Assembly (NCBI RefSeq): GCF_900129985.1
Contig: NZ_FQXN01000001.1
Coordinates: 124,001-188,000, forward strand
DNA: 64,000 nucleotides
Direction: 5' to 3'
DNA from: Thermosipho atlanticus DSM 15807
GTDB taxonomy: Bacteria; Thermotogota; Thermotogae; Thermotogales; Fervidobacteriaceae
Shown piece by piece: positions 6,941 to 8,285 of this stretch (positions are counted from its first letter, which is position 1; each line of letters begins with the position of its first letter). A program made the position numbers and the translations under genes. Below the pieces are notes generated by a model. That model searched no databases, had not been told where the DNA came from, and was given only the letters and a program-made list of their open reading frames with translations.

Positions 6941-6958
6941 AACGTTTACGTTAACGTT
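6941..6958 (+). promoter_or_regulatory. Candidate LacI-family operator upstream of the gal operon
   Basis: The 18 bases AACGTTTACGTTAACGTT contain two AACGTT boxes and a perfect 10-bp palindrome ACGTTAACGT (6948-6957), directly upstream of TATACT (6959-6964), the likely -10 of the galactose genes. CG-centred palindromes of this kind are typical LacI/GalR-family sites. No such regulator is encoded in the window. The rest of the 282-base metG/galA-like intergenic region is AT-rich with no gene. Confidence 0.5.
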
Positions 6959-7022
6959 TATACTAGGATTTAAAAATTGAAATAATAATTAAAATTTAAG
7001 AATTTATGTGAGGTGGTCTTGA

Positions 7023-8285
7023 TTGCTGAATGTTAGTGGAGTATTTAATGATGGTATTTTAGAGGAGAAATTTAATAATTTCTCTTTAAGATGGCAGGTT
7101 GAGAAAATACGTTTTGGATGGAAAATAAAGAGTTATGTTAAAGGTGAACCTAAAGAATTTGAGCTTTTGAGATTAAATTTAAAAAAAGATATAGTTATGA
7201 AAGGCGATTTAGTTAGTTTTAAGAGAAATGGTTTTATTATAATTGACAACATACTTTATGGTTTTTTAACAACTTTAAATGGAAATCTTAAGATATTAGT
7301 CGAAGACGATTCTCTAATTTTTAAAGTAAACTATGCTCATAAAGAGTTTGATGATTACGTTCCAGTAGGATCATTTGTTATTTTGAAAATTGCGAATAAA
7401 ATTGATTTGTATAAAAAGTATGTTGAGTTAGTAATGGAAGAAAATAATATACATTTAAAAAAGATAAAACCAATAATTTTGAAAGGTATAGATTTTTTAA
7501 GTATGAGCAAATTATTGCATTATTTGAAAAAGAAAGGTTTTAATATATTTTTTGTATATGATGAATATTCAAAATATGATCTTGAAGAAATTTATAAAGA
7601 AGATTTAATAAAGACTTCTAAAATGAAAAGGTTACGAGAAGAAGAAATAAATCCTGGGATAAAAATTTCATTTGATTCCAAAAATGTTAGTAAAGCCGCA
7701 TTAAAAAAATTATTTACATATTTTTCGAAAAAAGGTGTAAAATTAGTTGATATTGGTGAAGAGAGGAATATTAAAGTATTTAAGCTATTAAAGGAAATAA
7801 AAAAAGATTTCAAGGATTTAATTTTACTTTCTGAAAATTCTCCATTTCTTCATTCGGTTGGTGTTGTAGATATAGTTGAAAAAAGATTTGATGAAAATTA
7901 TTTGTTTAGTTTTTTAGAACACAAGAAAATTTGGTATGTAGCTGATAATTACCTTATTGATGATACTTTTTCAAAAAACACTTTATATGGAGTCTTGAAT
8001 AAAACCTTGATTCTTAACTATAATGAAAAAATTTGCGAAACAAAATTAATCAAAGATTTAGAAAATGTATTGTTAGAACAGGAATATTTCAAGATTGTAT
8101 CGGTGGGAGAAGATAAATTTGAAATTCGAAGTTATAGTGAAACTAGGGGATTAATAAACTTACAAATTGATCAAAGTATGAAAAGTGAGAAATTTATCAA
8201 AGAAGAAAAGACAAATCTAAGAAAAAAAATTGAAATAAGAAGAGATGGAAGGAAATTTTATTTTTTTGGAGGCGATGATATATGA
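7023..8285 (+). CDS. GH36 alpha-galactosidase-like protein, shortened and probably catalytically dead
   Basis: The 420-residue protein starts at TTG behind GAGGTGG and overlaps galT by 4 nt, so it is the first gene of the gal operon. Its N-terminus (VEKIRFGWKI..VKGEP) and residues 75-150 (LYGFL, EFDDYVP, ENN) align by eye with my recollection of T. maritima GalA (TM1192, about 552 residues). So do residues 272-283 (NSPFLHSVGVVD) and the C-terminus (RRDGRKFYFF). It is about 130 residues shorter. The WCSWYHYF and WQSWG substrate loops are gone, the IDDAYE motif is degraded to VYDEYS, and the nucleophile position (KIDFLF in GalA) reads LVDIGE, placing Gly245 where Asp is needed. Asp290 may keep the acid/base position. 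The reading frame is intact. It may be a pseudoenzyme, a binding protein or an early decay product. Confidence 0.8.
   Translation: MLNVSGVFNDGILEEKFNNFSLRWQVEKIRFGWKIKSYVKGEPKEFELLRLNLKKDIVMKGDLVSFKRNGFIIIDNILYGFLTTLNGNLKILVEDDSLIFKVNYAHKEFDDYVPVGSFVILKIANKIDLYKKYVELVMEENNIHLKKIKPIILKGIDFLSMSKLLHYLKKKGFNIFFVYDEYSKYDLEEIYKEDLIKTSKMKRLREEEINPGIKISFDSKNVSKAALKKLFTYFSKKGVKLVDIGEERNIKVFKLLKEIKKDFKDLILLSENSPFLHSVGVVDIVEKRFDENYLFSFLEHKKIWYVADNYLIDDTFSKNTLYGVLNKTLILNYNEKICETKLIKDLENVLLEQEYFKIVSVGEDKFEIRSYSETRGLINLQIDQSMKSEKFIKEEKTNLRKKIEIRRDGRKFYFFGGDDI

Follow-up and report, generated by a model that had tools for sequence, protein, structure and literature searches.

A catalytically stripped alpha-galactosidase in the Thermosipho galTK operon as a probable carrier of a DGR hairpin for GalT

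The operon and its first gene

The window, a stretch of 64,000 nucleotides from Thermosipho atlanticus DSM 15807, contains a galTK operon preceded by a GH36-derived relative of galA (Table 1). The 420 codons of this gene (7023–8285) form an unbroken frame with an in-frame stop closely 5′ of the start, and the gene overlaps galT by four bases at 8282. Together with the TTG start and its GAGGTGG site, this agrees with the preliminary description, which had reported an intact gene with its own start signal. The first residues of the GalT encoded at 8282 are MMELRYNPLTDEW; the DGR module described below is absent from this protein in cis and is present on the adjoining GalA. Upstream of the operon, positions 6941–6958 (AACGTTTACGTTAACGTT) form a near-palindromic triple repeat that is the sole exact match within the window, where 0.27 matches would be expected at three or fewer mismatches. 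It looks like a putative LacI/GalR-type operator.

Table 1 Features of the galTK operon, in window coordinates
Feature	Position	Strand	Remarks
Shine-Dalgarno GAGGTGG of stripped galA	7010..7016	+	6 nt 5′ of TTG start; read directly
Stripped galA ORF (GH36-derived, 420 aa)	7023..8285	+	TTG start; proposed carrier of GalT-associated DGR hairpin
GalA N-terminal beta-sandwich, retained, residues 7-140	7041..7442	+	Pfam GalA_N; phmmer to 1zy9; AF2
Shrunken, divergent TIM-barrel remnant, residues 141-350	7443..8072	+	Alignment; AF2 pLDDT mostly <40
Gly245 codon (nucleophile column)	7755-7757	+	Alignment
Asp290 codon (acid/base column)	7890-7892	+	Alignment
C-terminal beta-domain remnant, residues 351-398	8073..8216	+	phmmer 362-415 to 1zy9; alignment
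DGR hairpin tail (predicted), residues 399-417, LRKKIEIRRDGRKFYFFGG	8217..8273	+	DGR codons 8244-8252; profile match
Shine-Dalgarno GGAGG of galT	8268..8272	+	Inside GGD codons of stripped GalA tail; read directly
galT, 318 aa	8282..9238	+	HPHGQ present; without a DGR segment of its own; begins directly at ELRYNPLTDEW segment
galK, 350 aa	9235..10287	+	Overlapped by galT

Consistent with the earlier reading of the protein as a GalA relative that keeps its N-terminal domain and C terminus, Pfam assigned a GalA_N domain (PF22676; E=7e-14, 52 bits against a cutoff of 27) but no Melibiase domain, and phmmer matched it to Thermotoga maritima GalA (1zy9) over three collinear segments (residues 7–57, 69–152 and 362–415). 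T. maritima GalA (TM1192, GH36; PDB 1zy9/5m0x) shares the GalA_N domain, the C-terminal region and the place directly before galT, and its tail reads RxDGRNFYFY, similar to that of the window protein. By contrast, the nucleophile Asp and the WCSWYHYF loop are missing from the window protein, which is shorter by about 135 residues (420 versus 555 aa, close to the loss of about 130 residues estimated beforehand) and whose barrel remnant fails to match the Melibiase model.

To compare the catalytic columns, we aligned the window protein and the other stripped GalAs described below (17 in all) with 26 full-length GalAs. Both catalytic Asps were invariant in all 26 full-length proteins. In the window protein, Gly245 occupies the nucleophile (KIDF) column, Asp290 falls in the acid/base column and the WCSWYHYF substrate loop is deleted. 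This alignment, which the preliminary description had named as a check, did not restore both catalytic Asps, and the claim of a catalytically stripped protein with Gly245 at the nucleophile position was borne out. The nucleophile-column Asp, present in 26/26 full-length proteins, was found in only 1/17 stripped ones; an acid/base-column Asp was found in 2/17, and both together in none of the 17. As suggested, Asp290 falls in the acid/base column and may keep that site in the window protein; with Asp there in only two of the 17 stripped proteins, however, retention of the acid/base site is not a general property of the group.

In an AF2 model of the window protein, the N-terminal domain was predicted with a pLDDT of about 85 for residues 11–50 and about 61–82 for most of residues 71–140, and the middle was modelled poorly (pLDDT <40). 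A Foldseek match between this model and T. maritima GalA lends weak support to the relationship, the middle of the model being poor. A second, full-length GalA of 531 aa is encoded on another contig of the same genome (L043:3618-5213, G000:C5); it retains the two catalytic Asps and lacks a DGR tail. With this enzyme elsewhere in the genome, a catalytic role of the operonic copy would be redundant.

Stripped GalA proteins across Thermotogales

We searched 45 Thermotogales genomes and examined the galT neighbourhood at 43 loci. The gene directly 5′ of galT was of the GalA type in all 43, comprising 26 full-length genes (one ended by a contig edge) and 17 stripped ones (307–435 aa). The window gene is therefore not the single odd gene it had been taken for: stripped GalAs stand at the galT operon position in 16 further genomes. 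They occur in 4/4 genomes of the genus of the window, in two genomes from another genus of the same family and in 11/11 sampled genomes of a second family (f2). In a galT tree, the operons with stripped GalA fall into three well-supported clades, and one to three origins of the stripped state are possible on this sequence evidence. A scan of genome contigs with a single stripped GalA as the query recovered no relatives because the family diverges too fast, and every stretch of the GalA alignment was too variable for a pattern scan.

The stripped genes are fast-evolving and have been shortened in frame, and their galT neighbours remain 59–81% identical. All 17 frames are intact, with zero frameshifts. 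Omega (NG86) in three close pairs of stripped GalAs was 0.29 (95% confidence interval 0.18–0.48), 0.18 (0.12–0.27) and 0.27 (0.18–0.37), values that come from relatives, the nearest relative of the window gene (from genome G003) being only about 29% identical to it. For comparison, omega was about 0.09–0.14 for active GalA and 0.03–0.07 for galT. Selection on the stripped GalAs is relaxed yet real.

These data bear on whether the gene is a recently inactivated, functionless alpha-galactosidase gene heading for loss, one of the three fates offered earlier. The missing nucleophile, the loss of about 130 residues and the second full-length GalA in the genome would all fit such a gene. However, omega values of 0.18–0.29 are evidence against decay, all of their confidence intervals lie below 0.5, and intact frames persist across 17 species, three supported clades and every sampled f2 genome. 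We give this explanation hardly any credence.

Purifying selection also extends over the body of the protein. The N-terminal domain is kept in 17/17 stripped GalAs (126–150 residues), and by region the close pairs gave omega values of 0.22–0.45 for the N-terminal domain and 0.13–0.34 for the middle, so the body may do more than carry a tail. One possible explanation is that the stripped body has acquired a new function, such as binding galactose or an oligosaccharide, sensing, or acting as a scaffold for GalK or GalT, in which the tail would be one binding element among several. Against this, the body is only 18–25% identical among stripped members and its catalytic-site residues are scattered, the alignment revealed no conserved pocket signature, and Pfam and NCBIfam found no regulator domain. 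We consider a new function of the body unlikely.

The DGR tail and its other carriers

What the stripped GalAs have in common lies at their C terminus. There, the galT-adjacent Thermotogales GalAs carry a tail with the consensus R-x-D-G-R-x-F-x-F-Y, present in 43/43 proteins (literally as DGRxF in 39 and as a close variant in 4). The tail was absent from 11/11 solo full-length GalAs that we checked, which end before it; an apparent exception, the GalA of genome G050, was dismissed because its gene actually adjoins galT. In the rest of the Thermotogota phylum, every GalA adjoining galT bears the tail or a variant of it. From full-length to stripped proteins, mean pairwise identity drops from 0.44 to 0.25 in the N-terminal domain, from 0.61 to 0.22 in the barrel and from 0.38 to 0.18 in the C-terminal domain, whereas in the last 20 residues it goes only from 0.50 to 0.48. 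R410, F412 and F414 of the window protein are invariant in 17/17 stripped GalAs. The window tail fits the module motif R/K-x-[DEP]-DGR-x-[FLI]-x-[FY]-Y at the protein end and matches the module profile with E=3.7e-5, with no other match at E<=0.1 anywhere in the genome. Conservation of its GGD stretch may be in part at the DNA level, since the galT Shine-Dalgarno sequence sits in these codons. The preliminary description had singled out ENN and FDD patches as notable remnants; by comparison of sequences, the selected feature is instead the R-x-DGR-x-F-x-FY tail, which belongs to the biology of GalT rather than to that of GH36.

The same module occurs on other carriers. In Streptomyces, Actinomadura and Tsukamurella (Actinomycetota) and in Thermus and Deinococcus, it lies in cis at the N terminus of GalT itself, about 25–35 residues ahead of the ELRYNPL-type segment at which Thermotogota GalT begins. 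The modules of Streptomyces, Actinomadura, Thermus and Deinococcus GalT are of the DGR-x-[FL]-x-[FY]-Y type and are linked to the same enzyme as in the window, but they are part of GalT, whereas in the window the module is on a neighbouring pseudoenzyme. In many phyla, the module is encoded by a free ORF of 25–100 aa closely 5′ of galT. An all-frames scan detected such micro-ORFs in Bacillota, Chloroflexota, Actinomycetota, Acidobacteriota and others, with 3′ ends at or overlapping the galT start; one example (L203) reads MEKKVVRKEDGRYIIFYTFAQKKKVRK. Strong Shine-Dalgarno sites precede several of them, and in 6/6 micro-ORF pairs compared pS exceeded pN. The module also forms the C-terminal end of a GH2-family glycosidase (L262) and of GalE (L227), each encoded 5′ of galT, and it precedes galE-galT at two loci (L218 and L234). 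Because the motif is short, homology of all these carriers is suggested by motif, position and co-occurrence rather than by long alignments. In Poribacteria (L195 and L390), a 576-aa GalT frame has a DGR module near its start, followed by about 210 extra residues and then the GalT domain.

The module is predicted to be a beta-hairpin with DGR at the turn. For the fused GalT of Actinomadura (L252), AF2 gave a model with a mean pLDDT of 88 and strands at residues 21–24 and 30–33 flanking the DGR turn, with a normal GalT fold outside the hairpin. The hairpin itself reached a pLDDT of about 80, although the input alignment had no depth over it; micro-ORF peptides had been excluded from this prediction because MAFFT aligned them at wrong sites. 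Similarly, AF2 placed hairpin strands at residues 400–405 and 411–416 of the window protein, with DGR at the turn, at moderate confidence.

Genome-wide searches with a 23-residue profile linked the module to galT. Among 149 Actinomycetota genomes there were 18 matches at E<=0.01, and 18/18 lay within about 110 nt of galT; in 103 Thermotogota genomes, the matches at E<=1e-3 were, with few exceptions, GalA tails or neighbours of galT. One Thermotogota family (f11), in which GalA is not adjacent to galT, separates the tail from gene adjacency. A GalA with the tail is encoded in 7/7 of its genomes that possess the main galT, as against 0/9 of those lacking this galT, in which the protein stops cleanly ahead of the tail position (Fisher p about 9e-5, calculated by hand with the relatedness of the genomes ignored), and the f11 GalA tree implies at least two independent changes of the tail. 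In a tree of 121 GalTs, the presence of the module required 5 changes, compared with about 40 when labels were shuffled. For four GalTs of the DGR clade, an initial scan of the locus detected no module, but the genome does contain one, in at least one case (G106) on another contig; in one DGR-clade genome (L260) no module was found. Whole-genome searches of 14 genomes with a GalT from the non-DGR clade returned no module matches. We discarded GalT alignment columns that separate the DGR class from the rest as proof of the link, since clade membership confounds them and the window GalT has a mixed pattern. At the level of sequence, these comparisons show that the module tracks one large GalT subfamily irrespective of its carrier.

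The distribution of carriers also bears on a reading in which the protein is idle and the dead galA frame stays open only so that translation reaches galT. The overlap of the two genes, the galT Shine-Dalgarno sequence within the tail codons, and the in-frame shrinkage and fast evolution of the stripped genes beside a well-conserved galT are what translational coupling would produce. But omega is 0.18–0.29 gene-wide and below 1 in the N-terminal domain too, the tail is conserved as protein, and the module is also fused to GalT and occurs on GalA genes and ORFs that are not linked to galT. Given the cis GalT fusions, the tails encoded away from galT and the omega values, pure translational coupling fails as an explanation, and we regard it as distinctly improbable.

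A candidate GalT subunit

Our preferred reading is that the window gene encodes a GH36-derived pseudoenzyme whose surviving job, quite probably, is to present a DGR beta-hairpin of about 20 residues to GalT in trans. Co-occurrence, adjacency, fusion to GalT, the trans configurations and a tail that is retained while the rest erodes are the lines of evidence that comparison provides. We infer from them that the hairpin would bind GalT and stabilise, assemble or activate it. The stripped GalA is most likely still kept because its last 20 or so amino acids are a helper piece for GalT. Among the three functions offered by the preliminary description, the evidence favours the GalT partner over a sugar sensor or a decaying gene; nothing in these data speaks for a sugar sensor.

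More broadly, the DGR hairpin seems on balance to be a widespread, unrecognised GalT subunit, supplied as a microprotein, as the N terminus of GalT, or as the tail of GalA, GalE or a GH2 enzyme, and required by one large subfamily of GalT enzymes. In Thermotogota, fusion of the hairpin to the upstream alpha-galactosidase would have tethered that enzyme to GalT; here GalT starts without its own copy and GalA supplies one. In Thermosipho and related lineages, the catalysis of this GalA may have become redundant in the presence of the second full-length enzyme, and the barrel would then have eroded with the tail spared, leaving a hairpin holder and accessory subunit of GalT. The N-terminal beta-sandwich may have been kept as a folded handle or a link to galactose, and the stripped body, which is still somewhat constrained, may add folding, solubility or a second contact.

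Pseudoenzymes retained in partnership with active enzymes, and microproteins that act as subunits of large ones, are known classes, and GalT is a textbook enzyme of the Leloir pathway. The window gene resembles the first class in being a dead homologue under selection, as measured in its relatives, beside a metabolic enzyme; the free peptides resemble the second as small proposed partners of a large enzyme, GalT. The DGR module is absent from Pfam and NCBIfam, searches of an open-access library returned no mention of micro-ORFs, fusions or a DGR motif near galT, and neither a GH36 pseudoenzyme nor a peptide partner of GalT turned up in any of these three sources. A pseudoenzyme partner and a small peptide subunit are known kinds; the DGR family, like its association with GalT, appears to be new.

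If GalT does have the DGR module as a subunit, the annotation of many bacterial forms of the enzyme misses an essential or stabilising component, and a function can be assigned to many micro-ORFs 5′ of galT that are as yet unannotated. Should recombinant GalTs of the DGR class behave poorly when expressed alone, the missing module would be a ready explanation. The Thermotogota case would represent a testable route to pseudoenzyme retention, in which a metabolic enzyme becomes a pure accessory subunit through a small binding element fused to it earlier.

Two further genes were observed in the course of these searches. The window genome encodes a second, GalT-like paralogue (G000:C2:322593-323372) that shares about 37% identity with the GalT of the operon, and such a paralogue is present in nearly every Thermotogota genome searched, including those without the main galT. 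Adjoining the stripped galA of G003 is a 302-aa ORF (L032:5741-6649) that resembles part of a LacI-family regulator, a likeness seen on visual inspection of its initial residues alone.
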